Shown here: one piece after another, positions 24,919 to 36,949 of the stretch
Layout of the letters: each line of letters opens with the position of its first letter
Numbering within the stretch: the first letter of the stretch is position 1
Assembly (NCBI GenBank): GCA_009886045.1
Contig: VFJO01000079.1
Location: 1 to 46,196 of the forward strand
From: Verrucomicrobiota bacterium
GTDB lineage: Bacteria > Verrucomicrobiota > Verrucomicrobiia > Chthoniobacterales > Terrimicrobiaceae
DNA length: 46,196 nt
Direction of reading: 5' to 3'
Notes under the pieces: generated by a model
Databases searched by the model: none
What the model saw: the letters and a program-made list of their open reading frames with translations, nothing else
Told to the model about the DNA's origin: nothing
Made by a program: the position numbers and the translations under genes

Positions 24919-26094
24919 TTAAGCCCAGAGATTCAATTTACCCTCTCGAATGGTATCAGGGGGGGGTTGTTGAATGCTGGCAGTTTGTTTGGGGTTTGCC
25001 GAGGGAGTTCTATTCGTAAGAGTGGTCGGATCGGACTCCGATTGATATGAGTGTCGATTTTGTTGTTGAAAGGCGGTATCATTTTGGCGGGAGAGACCAT
25101 CTTGAAAATTGGACTCGCCGAATTGGATATTCTGCGTTCGATGTGTAGCAGTAAAATCCGGCCAAGCTTTTTGGAGAGCCTCTCGGAGCTCGGGAGATTC
25201 CGTAATGAAGGTCGAGCGGATTTCTCCAGCGCGGAGGTTGAGGCGAATGCGGACAGATTCGTTTTCCCCCACAGGGATATCTAACTGAAGTTGGGATTGT
25301 CCCGATTGCTTGAATTTTTCAAGTTCTGGAGGCAGGGCTTTGAAAAGTGCGGTGGCCTTTGCGGTTGGGCTTGCGGAGTTGGAGCGGGCCTCCCCCGGTA
25401 TAAGTGCCGAGGGATTACCAGACGCGAGTTGAGAAAAGTTGGTTTCGGATTCTGAATTGGAGCCGGAAATAGGCGTCACAGCCATGCGATCAATCGAAGC
25501 GACGGAAGCCAATCGGCTCACCGAAGTGATGGCAGTATCACGAACCATGTTGGGGTTCGCGGAGCCTTGCATTTCATCGAATGGAGCGAGCGAGATCATC
25601 TCATCTTCATTCATAGCATTTTCCATGCCATCGGCGTTTTTTTTGGCCGTGTCGAGAAGGTTGGAATAGGTGGTGTCCGCTTCAGTTTTTTCCTCGGCAA
25701 TTTGCGAGTCGATTTCCTCCACGACCTCTTTTTGAGCTTCTTTTTGCTTTAGGCTCTGAGTTGAGGTGTCTGGCGCATCCGATGGGGTTTTCTTTGTTGG
25801 GCTTCCCTCAAGGGAGGGTGCGGCAACTTCTGGTAGATCGGGTTGAGTTGGTGTTTGAGGAGCTGCGGCAACTAATGCCGCGTCCGCGGCGCGCTTGCGT
25901 TTTTTGGCGGCTTCAGCTTCCTCCAATTCTTTTTCCTGTTGGTCCTTGGGGTCGCTTTTTTGAATAAAGCTTTCGAAAGAATTAAGTTCCGTGCCATTTG
26001 GGACAGCCGCGAATTGGAAAAGTCCAGCGTCGTCCAAATTACGGGCTTCGAGAGAGGCGGGCTTCGTTTGTTGTGTTGGAAGCGGGGGTGTCAT
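24919..26094 (-). CDS. fliK: Flagellar hook-length control protein FliK
   Basis: FliK is a secreted molecular ruler that triggers the export switch through FlhB. The 391-residue protein has a long disordered N-region rich in Lys, Glu, Ala, Thr and Gln, and the conserved C-terminal domain (about 265-330) with LQLDIPVGENESVRIRLNLRAG and SPELREALQKAWPDF. The tail after it is Gln/Asn/Ser-rich. Position between motE-like gene and flgD is the classic fliK site. The start overlaps the end of the MotE-like gene by ATGA. Confidence 0.9.
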   Translation of the reverse strand: MTPPLPTQQTKPASLEARNLDDAGLFQFAAVPNGTELNSFESFIQKSDPKDQQEKELEEAEAAKKRKRAADAALVAAAPQTPTQPDLPEVAAPSLEGSPTKKTPSDAPDTSTQSLKQKEAQKEVVEEIDSQIAEEKTEADTTYSNLLDTAKKNADGMENAMNEDEMISLAPFDEMQGSANPNMVRDTAITSVSRLASVASIDRMAVTPISGSNSESETNFSQLASGNPSALIPGEARSNSASPTAKATALFKALPPELEKFKQSGQSQLQLDIPVGENESVRIRLNLRAGEIRSTFITESPELREALQKAWPDFTATHRTQNIQFGESNFQDGLSRQNDTAFQQQNRHSYQSESDPTTLTNRTPSANPKQTASIQQPPPDTIREGKLNLWA

Positions 26095-32607: not shown

Positions 32608-32997
32608 TTAGACTGGACGGCCCACAATGGCGTGGCGGAGTTGCTTGAGGGAGCCGCTGGCAAAATCCGTGAGCACGCTGAAGTTCATTGTATTTTTCGT
32701 AAGGCCGAGGAGCTCGCTGTCGATTTGGACATTATTGCCGTCCGCACGAGTTGATGGGGTGAGTGTATCGGCCTCGGTCCTAGGTTCGGCCGCTGCAATT
32801 TCATCAGCGTCACGAGATTTGATGCTAGCGCGCAGTTCGTCCTCAAAGGACCGGCTCAAATCTACCCGCTTGTAGCCGGGGGTCGAGACATTGGCTAGGT
32901 TGCTTGCGATAGCTGAATGACGAAGAGTCGTAACATCCATCATTTTTTTCACAGCTGTGTAATTGTCGCTGTTGAAGAGTGAGGCCACCATTTCCAT
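32608..32997 (-). CDS. flgB: Flagellar proximal rod protein FlgB
   Basis: A 129-residue rod protein with LRHSAIASNLANVSTPGYKRVDLSRSFEDEL, the family signature, in the first third. The frame is open to 33075, but the residues before ATG 32997 do not look like FlgB, and a sigma-54-like element lies at 33010-33025, so I start here (ATG 32991 is also possible). It is the first gene of a 21-gene unit running to flhA. The predicted transcript would begin only about two bases before this ATG. Confidence 0.93.
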   Translation of the reverse strand: MEMVASLFNSDNYTAVKKMMDVTTLRHSAIASNLANVSTPGYKRVDLSRSFEDELRASIKSRDADEIAAAEPRTEADTLTPSTRADGNNVQIDSELLGLTKNTMNFSVLTDFASGSLKQLRHAIVGRPV

Positions 32998-33009
32998 GAT
33001 TGAATGATT

Positions 33010-33025
33010 AGCAGAAGCTGTGCCA
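33010..33025 (-). promoter_or_regulatory. Sigma-54-like -24/-12 element before flgB
   Basis: Minus strand reads TGGCACAGCTTCTGCT, with GG and GC ten bases apart as required for sigma-54 promoters. Only the first T of the TTGCW half deviates. The -12 C is 14 nt upstream of the flgB ATG. A nearly identical element with the same flanking ATCATT lies at 34000-34015. Confidence 0.6.
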
Positions 33026-33120
33026 GTTCCCAGAGAGTCACCACAATCCGATTTGAGGCTTGGGCAGGGGCTCAAAAGAATCGCTCAAAGAAAACTCAGA
33101 TATTTCTTAATGAAAATACT

Positions 33121-33136
33121 TTAAATATATATTTAA
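33121..33136. promoter_or_regulatory. Perfect AT palindrome upstream of flgB
   Basis: TTAAATATATATTTAA is its own reverse complement and lies about 100 bp upstream of the flgB sigma-54-like element, a usual distance for an activator or integration-host-factor-type site. It also could serve as the -10 region of a sigma-70 promoter on the minus strand with TTGCAG upstream (33144-33149). Confidence 0.3.
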
Positions 33137-33180
33137 CGGCATTCTTGTCTGCAAAACGAAGAGGCAAAAAACATTTTGAG

Positions 33181-33198
33181 GCCTCCGGCTCAGGAGGC
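33181..33198 (-). terminator. Possible terminator downstream of the 169-residue gene
   Basis: A 6-bp GC-rich stem (GCCTCC/GGAGGC, 6-nt loop) is followed on the minus strand, after CTCAAAATG, by six T. The T run is displaced, so it is a weak intrinsic-terminator candidate for the transcript of the gene ending at 33476. Confidence 0.3.
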
Positions 33199-33475
33199 GA
33201 TCCAATTCGAAAGACCAATTTCAGAGAAATTGGGATGGCCGAGACTAGGCAAAAAACTGGTCATGGCAGAAGATGCCAGAGGGGGTGTGGCATGATCGGC
33301 AAAACTTGCCGAGCTTGGAATGAGGACTGCTCGTGTTGCCTGCAGCTTGGGCAAGTGTCCGATTGTGTAAGCATCAATCCCGAGCTCGTGGATAAGGTTG
33401 TCGGTCTAGGGGAGAAACCTCTTGTGTGGAAGCTGCAAAATCGCACAGACCAGGCTGAGAGACAAATCGCGTTGT

Positions 33476-33985
33476 TTACGCTTGGAGCGTAGCCTTAGCT
33501 CCAGGAACGATGCGCAGGGATCCGCCAACATCTTTGGAAGATGCCGCCCCGTTTGGGTAAGCAATTTTTGAACTCTCTATGATGGACACCGCTTTTTGGG
33601 CAGTTCCCTTGAGATTTCCGTCTAATTGGAAAGTTTTTTCTGAGCCGTCGGCTTTTTTGATGACGACATTTCCATCGGGAAGAAATTTTAGGTCAAATGG
33701 TTCGGAGCTTCCCTCGAGTGCTTTAGCGACTTCTGGGGATTGGAGGATTTTTTGAGACATTTGTTGCAGCGTCATTTCGACGTCAGATCGGCTCCCGATA
33801 CCTTCTGCACTAAGGCTTTGCATGTTTTTGTATTCCGGAGTGCTTGTCGCCTTAGCGAGAATCTGGGCAAACGCTGCTTTTTTCATTTCGGCAGAGCTTG
33901 GAGCCTTCTCGGCGGAATTTCCAGTAAGGCTATTGAGAATATTGCTGCCCATCTTGGCGGCCGTGATGGCGAGGAAAGGGTTCAT
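33476..33985 (-). CDS. Hypothetical protein upstream of flgB, likely flagellar regulon
   Basis: A 169-residue protein without signal peptide or membrane helix. It has an Ala/Lys/Ser-rich helical N-half (about 1-85) and a small beta-rich C-part with FDLKFLPDGNVVIKKADGSEKTFQLDG (about 97-123), which looks like a compact sheet. I recognise no family. ATG 33985 is chosen over an upstream TTG at 33994. It has its own sigma-54-like element at 34000-34015, near-identical to that of flgB, suggesting co-regulation with the flagellar unit. A secreted substrate or chaperone role would fit but is speculation. Confidence 0.7.
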   Translation of the reverse strand: MNPFLAITAAKMGSNILNSLTGNSAEKAPSSAEMKKAAFAQILAKATSTPEYKNMQSLSAEGIGSRSDVEMTLQQMSQKILQSPEVAKALEGSSEPFDLKFLPDGNVVIKKADGSEKTFQLDGNLKGTAQKAVSIIESSKIAYPNGAASSKDVGGSLRIVPGAKATLQA

Positions 33986-33999
33986 ATTGCTCAATGATG

Positions 34000-34015
34000 A
34001 GCAGCTTTTGTGCCA
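34000..34015 (-). promoter_or_regulatory. Sigma-54-like -24/-12 element before the 169-residue gene
   Basis: Minus strand reads TGGCACAAAAGCTGCT, GG-N10-GC, sharing TGGCACA-N4-CTGCT and the downstream ATCATT with the flgB element. The -12 C is 16 nt upstream of the ATG at 33985, so the predicted transcript has only about a 4-nt leader. Confidence 0.58.
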
Positions 34016-34074
34016 TACTGGAGACTTCTCCGCGCCTGAGGCATCTTGCCCTTCAGGTTCAGGGAATAAAAAAC

Positions 34075-35544
34075 CTATCGCTGCAAGGCTGCGGGCGGGG
34101 CGATTTGGTTGGCGGCCTGCTGAGTGGTTTGGGAGGGAACGGCAGCAGGGGTTGCTGCGGGTTTTTCTGTTTTAAGGAAAGCGGGTTGGAGATCGCTGGC
34201 TGGAGTTTCCTTATCGAGAAGCGGGTAGAGATCTTTTTCGGTTTTTTCCAGCCAGTCGAGGTTATCGAGTCTCCATTGAGCCATATCGCGAAGTGTGGCG
34301 AGGTTCATACCGATTATGGTGTCGCCCTCGGTCGCTGGAGCTGCGGCTGGGATTTTATCAATGATATACCGGTAGGCCTCTCGGGCACGGGTGTTGTAGC
34401 GGAGGCGTTCAAAGCAGAGTCCGATCTGGTAGACCGTGGGACCGCGCCAATTGGGAGCGTCGTTGAGCTCAGCTAGCTTTTGATAGACGGAGAGGGCACC
34501 GAGTGTGTCGCCGGCCTCGTAGAGTTCGTTTGCGATGTCGTTGCCTGTTTTGCGCTGCCAGTAAGCCCAGACAGCTGGTTTTTTCTTACCGTATTCTCGG
34601 CCAGCCTGCAGGAGCTTGATTGTCTCTTGCATGGCTTCGTCTTTACGGCCCAGAGCTCGGAGGGACTGAATGCGCAGATACTGTGCTTCGGGAGCCAGTG
34701 GGCTTGCGGGATAAGTTGAAAGGAAAGCCTCGGCACCGGTGAGGGAGTTGGTGTATTGACCCGACAGGTAATGGATGTAGGCGAAGCGGAAGGCGACTTC
34801 GCTGGCTTCTGCTTGTGTCATTTTCACAAGCTTCAAGCGGGAGTACAGTTCAGCAGCGGCCTTGTAGTCGCCCGAAGCAAAATGAGTATGGGCAATTTCC
34901 AATTTTGCACGCAGCGAAGAGTCGGTGTATTCCTCCCCAGTTTTGACTTGGAGAGCCGAGTAAAGCACGCTGTAGAATTTGTTAAGCGCACTGGAATAGG
35001 CGCCATTTTCGCGATATATCCTACCGAGCCGAAGCAGAATCTCGGGAGTCTCTGGGTCGCTTGGAAACAAATTCACAAACTGCTCGTAAACTACGGCTGC
35101 TTTGGCTGGTTGCTTTTGTTTTTCTTCCAAATTGCGCCCCATGGTCAGGAGGGCCTTGCCTTTCTGTTTTTCGGGGGCGGCGAGGCGGAGGATTTGGTTG
35201 AACTTTTTTTCGGCAAGTGCAAGGTCACCGATTTCCAAGGCCTGCTGCATTTCCTCTGAAAGTGCTTCGGTGCTGGCCTCGCTGGCCATCAGACTCGTGG
35301 CGTAGGCGGGATTTTCCTCAAGTTCCGTTTCAAGTGCATCAAATTCGATCGGCACGGCGATGCTGTTCGGATTGGCGTCTGCGGAGAGATTGTTCTGCAA
35401 AGGCGGAGCTGCCGGCGCTTCCACCATCGCAGATCCTGAGCTGCTATGGGAACTGGCTTCGGAGGCGATTGGAGGTGGAGAGGCAATTTCTGCATAGGCG
35501 GCAGTGGCCAAGAAAAGAACGGAAAGTCTGGTGAAGCGGCGCAT
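34075..35544 (-). CDS. Exported TPR-repeat protein
   Basis: A 489-residue protein with a signal peptide (cleavage near AAYAE, residue 18), an Ala/Ser/Pro-rich stretch, and then a long array of tetratricopeptide-like helical pairs from about residue 95 to 420. Examples are KAAVVYEQFVNLFPSDPETPEILLRLGRIYRENG and the following repeats, similar to YbgF/BamD-type envelope proteins. The tail is Pro/Ala/Gln-rich. It follows the lipoprotein gene by two bases, so both are one unit. A role as an envelope scaffold is likely; a flagellar one is suggested only by location. Confidence 0.75.
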   Translation of the reverse strand: MRRFTRLSVLFLATAAYAEIASPPPIASEASSHSSSGSAMVEAPAAPPLQNNLSADANPNSIAVPIEFDALETELEENPAYATSLMASEASTEALSEEMQQALEIGDLALAEKKFNQILRLAAPEKQKGKALLTMGRNLEEKQKQPAKAAVVYEQFVNLFPSDPETPEILLRLGRIYRENGAYSSALNKFYSVLYSALQVKTGEEYTDSSLRAKLEIAHTHFASGDYKAAAELYSRLKLVKMTQAEASEVAFRFAYIHYLSGQYTNSLTGAEAFLSTYPASPLAPEAQYLRIQSLRALGRKDEAMQETIKLLQAGREYGKKKPAVWAYWQRKTGNDIANELYEAGDTLGALSVYQKLAELNDAPNWRGPTVYQIGLCFERLRYNTRAREAYRYIIDKIPAAAPATEGDTIIGMNLATLRDMAQWRLDNLDWLEKTEKDLYPLLDKETPASDLQPAFLKTEKPAATPAAVPSQTTQQAANQIAPPAALQR

Positions 35545-35546
35545 GG

Positions 35547-36002
35547 TTATTGGACTTTATAGGATGTGCTGCTGACGGGTTGATTGGCCGAGTTTGCCGG
35601 GCGGAAAACTGTATCGAAGAAAGACCCGAGCACGGATTCGCCAGCAGGGCCGTCTCCTGCGCCTTGAAAGAAATCCTGAGTTTGCTCGTTGTTGATGAAC
35701 TTAGGGCTGGTGGAGTCAACCACCACCGCATCGCTCGAGTCGGTTGCAGTATTAGTGGATACCAACGCGTCATCGGTATCCGAGATATTCACGATGGTCT
35801 TTGGAAGGAGCGGTGGCTTGCGGCGCGAATTGGAATCTTGCGCCACACGCATCGGTGCTGGCTTAGGCAATTTCTGCGGCATCACAGAGGCTTGCGTGGG
35901 TGTCGTTTTTTTCGAGGTGCTCGAGCAGGAAATCAAGCCAGAAGCGGCAATGAGGAGCGCAAGAGCGAGTTTGGATAGAGCCAAGAAACCATAAGCCCGC
36001 AT
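35547..36002 (-). CDS. Putative lipoprotein
   Basis: A 151-residue protein with a lipoprotein signal (MRAYGFLALSKLALALLIAASG then LISC, modified Cys about residue 26). The Ser/Thr/Lys/Pro-rich remainder has no domain I recognise; it ends in FFDTVFRPANSANQPVSS. I start at ATG 36002 because the signal is canonical from there; ATG 36044 would add 14 polar residues. It precedes the TPR protein by two nt, so they may work together in the outer membrane. It is divergent from the operon at 36203. Confidence 0.65.
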   Translation of the reverse strand: MRAYGFLALSKLALALLIAASGLISCSSTSKKTTPTQASVMPQKLPKPAPMRVAQDSNSRRKPPLLPKTIVNISDTDDALVSTNTATDSSDAVVVDSTSPKFINNEQTQDFFQGAGDGPAGESVLGSFFDTVFRPANSANQPVSSTSYKVQ

Positions 36003-36174
36003 CGGTTTGTTGGGTTCTTGGAGGGGTGATTCGTTGAGGCGCATAGTTACTTCTATCGAACGAAGTTCGCAAAACTTAATCGGAAAACAAAACTCGGCAA
36101 GTGGAAAGTCTGCTTGTTCGGTCCGCAATTTTTTTGCATGTCGGAATAGATGAGACCGAATCAAATTATGCACA

Positions 36175-36190
36175 AGGCACGAAAAATGCT
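36175..36190 (+). promoter_or_regulatory. Sigma-54-like -24/-12 element before the lipoprotein-kinase-regulator operon
   Basis: Plus strand reads AGGCACGAAAAATGCT: GGCACG as in the consensus and GG-N10-GC spacing; the -12 half is ATGCT instead of TTGCT. The -12 C is 14 nt before the ATG at 36203. Over 28 positions (36175-36202) it matches 21 bases of the element at 15829-15844 and what follows it, including CGATTTG just after the -12 box. Confidence 0.55.
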
Positions 36191-36202
36191 GCGATTTGGA
36201 CT

Positions 36203-36949
36203 ATGACTTTTCGCATTCTTTGTCTTTTGGGCGCCTTATCCCTCGCAGCCTGCACTCACTCATCAACTTCGCAGACTTTGGATGATAAAAGCAATCGCTC
36301 GGCTCGAATCCAGCAGATTTCCCAACCAACAATGACCTTGCCGCCGCAGGACTTATCGTCAAATTCGGGAATTCGCTGGCCACAAGGAATGCGACGCCTC
36401 GCCGTCTTGCCAATTTATTCGACTCGCCCGATCGACCAAACACAACGCGACATGGACGGCATTTTCCGCGCTGAGTTGTCAAAAGTTGTCAAATACGAAG
36501 TCGTGCAGGTCAGCCGTACTGACATGGCAGGGTTGGTCAATCGCGAGGCCGTTTCCTCATCCGAGATTATTCCAGCTTCTGTGATTGCGATGCTGCGACA
36601 AAAATATGCGGCTGATGCGGTTCTTTTTACCGACTTCACGCTTTTCCGCCCGTATCGCCCCCTGGCAATCGGAGTGAGATCGAAAATTGTGGACATCAAG
36701 ACGATGGATGTTCTCTGGATGGCGGATGGGATTTTGGATGCGGCCGAGCCTGATGTCTCCGACCTTGCGACTCAGTTCTCAGAAACCGGCCTACAAATGC
36801 GCTACGTGAGTGCGAAGGTTCCAAAGGGGCGGCAACGTGAGGAAGATAGTGGAAACCAAATCATTCTGCAAAGTCCTCGACTTTATGCAGCATTCGTTGC
36901 CCATGAGGCTTTTGCAAGCCTTGCACCTGCACCAGCGCCTACCAAATAA
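36203..36949 (+). CDS. CsgG/LpoB-like lipoprotein
   Basis: A 248-residue lipoprotein. The signal MTFRILCLLGALSLAAC ends in a clear lipobox (LAAC), which fixes the start at ATG 36203 rather than the longer frame from 36101. The mature part has the alternating alpha/beta pattern of CsgG/LpoB/GNA1162-like envelope proteins: RRLAVLPIYSTRP, a helix, YEVVQVSRTDMAGLV, KYAADAVLFTDFTLFRPYRP, and IVDIKTMDVLWMADGILDA. It is coupled by TAATG to the kinase-like gene. A flagellar outer-membrane role (compare FlgP/FlgT types) is possible because of the promoter and neighbours, but unproven. Confidence 0.75.
   Translation: MTFRILCLLGALSLAACTHSSTSQTLDDKSNRSARIQQISQPTMTLPPQDLSSNSGIRWPQGMRRLAVLPIYSTRPIDQTQRDMDGIFRAELSKVVKYEVVQVSRTDMAGLVNREAVSSSEIIPASVIAMLRQKYAADAVLFTDFTLFRPYRPLAIGVRSKIVDIKTMDVLWMADGILDAAEPDVSDLATQFSETGLQMRYVSAKVPKGRQREEDSGNQIILQSPRLYAAFVAHEAFASLAPAPAPTK

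Follow-up and report, generated by a model that had tools for sequence, protein, structure and literature searches.

The window (the whole stretch of 46,196 nucleotides that was analysed) belongs to a Verrucomicrobiota metagenome-assembled genome and contains three genes preceded at short distance by predicted sigma-54 promoters. The distance d is given throughout as the number of nucleotides from the C of the -12 element to the A of the ATG. The genes, promoters, spacers and start codons are as follows, the promoters having been read directly and by pattern.

32608..32997, minus strand: flgB, 129 aa, matching TIGR01396 with 82 bits (cut-off 59) and PF00460
32997-32995, minus strand: ATG of flgB, d=14
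32998..33010, minus strand: 13-nt spacer between promoter and ATG of flgB, with transcription predicted to start at the A of the ATG or no more than about 2 nt from it
33011..33025 (33025-33011), minus strand: predicted sigma-54 -24/-12 promoter of flgB, TGGCACAGCTTCTGC
33476..33985, minus strand: gene encoding 169 aa, present in 16 genomes (the genus and G036)
33985-33983, minus strand: ATG of the 169-aa gene, d=16
34001..34015 (34015-34001), minus strand: predicted sigma-54 promoter of the 169-aa gene, TGGCACAAAAGCTGC
36175..36189, plus strand: predicted sigma-54 promoter of the lipoprotein gene, AGGCACGAAAAATGC
36190..36202, plus strand: 13-nt spacer between promoter and ATG of the lipoprotein gene
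36203-36205, plus strand: ATG of the lipoprotein gene, d=14
36203..36949, plus strand: lipoprotein gene, 248 aa, with the signal peptide MTFRILCLLGALSLAAC

The flgB gene heads a run of flagellar genes, among them fliF, fliG, fliH and fliI. Profile search of the 169-aa gene in Pfam and NCBIfam produced no match. The lipoprotein had been labelled CsgG-like in the preliminary description, which Pfam did not confirm; a weak GNA1162-like match (PF05643) was found at 15.8 bits, under the cut-off of 25.9. All three genes used an AUG start codon. It had also been proposed that the start of flgB is fixed by its N-terminus and that of the lipoprotein by its signal peptide. Both proposals held, as the flgB ATG aligned across all genus orthologues and the same lipoprotein ATG opened the signal peptide in the orthologues. 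A second in-frame ATG of flgB (codon 3) was rejected as the start since six of 14 orthologues have a leucine codon there, and an in-frame TTG located 9 nt upstream of the ATG of the 169-aa gene was rejected because it was not conserved. The named relatives whose flgB was near-identical or similar were freshwater Spartobacteria and Terrimicrobiaceae, e.g., AMD-G4 and UBA5019. An FlgB gene was present in Spartobacteria AMD-G4 (NEUK01000031.1), although the paper on the AMD-G4 genome, in the portion available, reports flagellum genes in its large genomes only (PMC5673642).

The distances of 14, 16 and 14 nt claimed earlier for flgB, the 169-aa gene and the lipoprotein gene were exact on direct reading and with the pattern. 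Compared to the consensus TGGCACN5TTGC, the promoters of flgB and the 169-aa gene matched 9 of 10 bases and that of the lipoprotein gene, which is without the first T of TGGCAC, matched 8 of 10; the GG (-24) and GC (-12) were exact and correctly spaced in all three. The pattern GGCAYN6TGCT had four matches in the 46-kb window against 0.86 expected. When an ATG 11-15 nt downstream was also required, the four matches stood against 0.06 expected and none of 100 shuffles reached four. The fourth of these matches (C at 25616, minus strand) was set aside as a coding coincidence within a fliK-like ORF (24919-26094). The window genome encodes RpoN (TIGR02395, 409 bits, RpoN box ARRTVAKYRE present) and three activators, which are full-score PF00158 proteins with a GAFTGA or GSFTGA loop.

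Comparison with orthologues showed that the short spacing is kept. A sigma-54 site was found at d=13-16 of flgB in 17/17 genomes from three families of the order, where one locus used a GTG start and another an in-frame ATG lying ahead of the part that aligns. A similar site preceded the lipoprotein gene in 16/16 genus genomes (d=14 in 12, 13 in two and 16 in two) despite divergent signal peptides. Orthologues of the 169-aa gene had d=13-20 in 13 of 16 genomes and d=31-38 in the other three (G005, G010 and G008); because of these longer distances, this gene is the least secure of the three predicted cases. The spacers themselves drifted at constant length, with a mean pairwise identity of 46% (minimum 17%) for flgB among the genus rows with d=14 and a mean identity of 41% for the lipoprotein gene. 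Alignment of the 300 nt upstream of flgB in G000 and four near relatives showed the sigma-54 box as the main conserved island. The box was likewise the main conserved island in the aligned 200 nt upstream of the lipoprotein gene, with a CGGCAAG stretch further upstream.

The position of the transcription start was estimated from two sigma-54 genes of the genus that do have leaders, flagellin (d=58) and glutamine synthetase, glnA (d=92). The flagellin leader in six species was variable from C+2 to C+11, had a T at C+12 in all and was invariant as GCAG from C+14, while the glnA leader in two species was conserved from about C+13 (GCCGCACGGGA). Since both leaders are conserved only from there, we infer a transcription start at about C+12 to C+14, which is where the AUGs of flgB and the lipoprotein gene are located. 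This agrees with the sigma-54 motifs of C. jejuni, which lie 8-13 nt before mapped starts in the part of that study available (PMC3847290). The preliminary description had predicted leaders of 2-4 nt. The near absence of a leader stood, and the length was refined to a more likely 0-2 nt for flgB and the lipoprotein gene because the estimated start is nearer to C+13/14 than to C+12; sigma-54 starts vary by a few nt and spacing does not resolve leader lengths between 0 and 5 nt.

The leadered genes also showed features of their own. The flagellin leader (L054, L081, L082 and L286-L288, genus g1) was conserved and about 45 nt long; it contained a hairpin, GACCC(ATGGAnn)GGGTC, and lacked a Shine-Dalgarno. 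L081 had a second site with a different palindrome, CTCCCATGGGAG, ahead of ATGATATC. In L046 and L290, glnA was preceded by a sigma-54 promoter, at d=92 in L046, and its conserved leader contained GCTACACCAGACGGCCTGG and, further on, CTACACC. An Rfam search of the flagellin and glnA leaders produced no match, and the glnA leader is possibly an unlisted RNA element.

The general lack of Shine-Dalgarno sequences noted earlier was borne out in 800 kb of the congener G010, in which 49 unambiguous first genes called by a home-made gene finder showed no excess (10% compared to 12-14% in controls). Genes inside operons of G010 had a weak excess (19% vs 10%), and E. coli gave 60% vs 20% by the same measure. 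In the same first genes, TANNNT began at -15 to -10, where a leaderless gene would have its -10 box, in 8 of 49 against about one expected, and C was favoured at -1 and -2 of G010 starts. Leaderless sigma-70 genes may therefore be common in the genus of G010.

Other genes carried sigma-54 sites at short distance. A flgF-like gene had d=17 in G000 and d=14 in G010. Another gene, which encodes 140 aa and by eye resembles a flagellar chaperone, had d=15-16 in six genomes. For the cultured Pelagicoccus mobilis, d was 13 for flgB, 16 for the flgF-like gene, 15 for a globin gene, 16 for a 501-aa gene, 12 for a secreted 165-aa gene and 34 for another gene. Single unconserved Pelagicoccus sites are weak because the pattern also matched inside genes and a reversed control was as frequent (18 against 11).

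The phylum was sampled with 80 FlgB loci from named genomes, for which the start codons were picked by the analyst from in-frame candidates and alignment. A total of 68 Verrucomicrobiota flgB loci had a site, at d=13-18 in 46, d=22-35 in 22 and 19-21 in none, with modal distances of 13 and 14; this set included L186 and L194, which carry another or no phylum in their titles yet group with Verrucomicrobiota. The L169 locus had no recognisable sigma-54 site. L207 (Verrucomicrobiae DG1235) was excluded from the count as its FlgB frame looks broken, apparently shifted soon after the start compared to Pelagicoccus through a sequencing error or a mutation; its sigma-54 site was at d=13. On the FlgB tree, the short and longer distance classes required about four changes, compared to a mean of 19 after shuffling with 0/500 shuffles as low, on a short alignment in which many forks are unsettled.

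Acidobacteriota flgB loci (18) had d=62-90 in 14, d=24 in one and d=14 followed by GTG in three, and differed from Verrucomicrobiota in a rank test in which relatedness was ignored (p=5e-7). The three loci with the site 14 nt from GTG (L269, L270 and L228), most relatives of which have 62-90 nt, would represent a separate shift to short spacing. Two Acidobacteriota together with the Verrucomicrobiota made up the sets of 48 short-distance loci and 70 loci in total. The 48 short-distance loci used ATG in 44 and GTG in four, two of the latter being Acidobacteriota. GTG is less favoured than AUG in leaderless initiation. No clear Shine-Dalgarno excess was found at the short-distance loci, where a 4-nt match occurred in 12/48 compared to 8/48 at the control position. 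A pyrimidine before the ATG was dropped as a sign of a start at the A because it was common in the 22-35 nt set too.

Overall, these sigma-54 promoters very probably place the initiating nucleotide at the A of the start codon or about 0-4 nt from it, giving leaderless sigma-54 flagellar mRNAs. This interpretation is supported as a prediction of the 5' ends, since the spacing is kept while the spacer drifts, the starts are conserved, first genes of a congener show no Shine-Dalgarno excess, the genome encodes RpoN and activators, and the start estimated from the leadered genes coincides with the AUGs. The start nucleotide, taken from the flagellin and glnA leaders, the activity of the sites and the mode of translation are what we infer from these sequences. 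An enhancer-binding activator would open the RpoN-polymerase complex at the site and transcription would begin some 13-14 nt downstream of the -12 C, so that the 5' end of the mRNA would be the AUG or lie a few bases ahead of it. An mRNA starting at its AUG could not carry a Shine-Dalgarno, and translation would be expected to follow the leaderless route, in which the ribosome and initiator tRNA recognise the 5'-terminal AUG. Short leaders appear to be tolerated as well, since in three relatives the site of the 169-aa gene lies at d=31-38 and one related clade has its flgB site at d=22-35.

The reading closest to this one has transcription starting early, at C+8 to C+10, which would leave leaders of 4-8 nt and an ordinary Shine-Dalgarno-independent 30S route with no recognition of a 5'-terminal AUG. 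Sigma-54 starts are reported across a range of several nt in the available part of one study (PMC3847290), and the flgB clade at d=22-35 makes use of short leaders while showing no clear Shine-Dalgarno excess. An early start is nevertheless unlikely, as conservation of the flagellin and glnA leaders only from about C+12/C+13 and the modal flgB distances of 13 and 14, which put the A of the ATG in that same zone, both speak for the later position. Working sigma-54 sites could also be accompanied by a second promoter, or by read-through from an upstream gene, that supplies a leadered and mainly translated mRNA. There is room for such a promoter in the about 480 nt that separate the 169-aa gene from flgB in the window genome, and the search for sigma-70 and sigma-28 promoters was non-exhaustive. 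The fixed spacing of 13-16 nt would then have no need to be kept, a leader would have no clear Shine-Dalgarno excess to serve and the main island shared upstream of flgB is the sigma-54 box, which makes this arrangement very unlikely.

The least credible reading, which can be given hardly any weight, is that the boxes arose by chance or do not belong to promoters. The coding coincidence inside fliK among the four window matches and the missing first T at the lipoprotein site would fit it. However, shuffles give 0.06 matches, RpoN and activators are encoded, and boxes with GG and GC recur at nearly the same distance in 17/17 genomes for flgB, in 16/16 for the lipoprotein gene and at most flgB loci of the phylum.

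With the leaderless reading extended to the flagellated Verrucomicrobiota, the balance tips slightly towards a sigma-54 regulon that would be largely leaderless and take in rod, chaperone-like and lipoprotein genes along with some that are non-flagellar. The initiating nucleotide of these genes would be the A of the AUG, and flagellin and glnA would be leadered exceptions. The flgB arrangement would then be old in the phylum and have a separate origin in some Acidobacteriota. The predicted novelty is the coupling of leaderless mRNA to sigma-54; a literature search of partial coverage yielded no description of flagellar mRNAs that are both leaderless and sigma-54-driven, and isolated cases may exist. 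If true, activator-dependent sigma-54 initiation and leaderless translation, which are usually treated apart, would be joined, and the pairing would be stable for flgB over much of the phylum, unlike the poorly conserved leaderless set of Epsilonproteobacteria. It would also supply a working rule by which start codons and RpoN targets can be called in Verrucomicrobiota, with Pelagicoccus mobilis and Puniceicoccaceae K14 as cultured species for direct testing.

The sigma-54 flagellar promoters of C. jejuni, H. pylori, Caulobacter, Vibrio and Pseudomonas resemble those described here in the -24/-12 box for rod and hook genes and in the use of RpoN with enhancer-binding activators. Their transcripts usually have a leader with a ribosome-binding site, whereas the start codon in the window sits at the predicted transcription start. 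Bacterial leaderless mRNAs, as presented in the available parts of studies on Leptospira, C. jejuni and S. meliloti (PMC5243855, PMC3847290, PMC3616915), have the start codon at the 5' end or close to it, lack a Shine-Dalgarno and mostly use AUG, as the predicted transcripts would; for S. meliloti, 112 sigma-54 starts and 171 leaderless starts are listed (PMC3616915). The leaderless set of C. jejuni is preceded by sigma-70 TAnAaT boxes and is poorly conserved between related species (PMC3847290), whereas the promoter here is of the sigma-54 type and the flgB arrangement is conserved over much of the phylum. Finally, Akkermansia and strain IMCC26134, listed as Shine-Dalgarno-scarce Verrucomicrobia (PMC10783764), are similar in their little use of Shine-Dalgarno though the 16S tail, as seen in the congener G010, retains CCTCC. 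That work, in the part available, is about Shine-Dalgarno pairing, while the finding in the window is about promoter position at sigma-54 genes.
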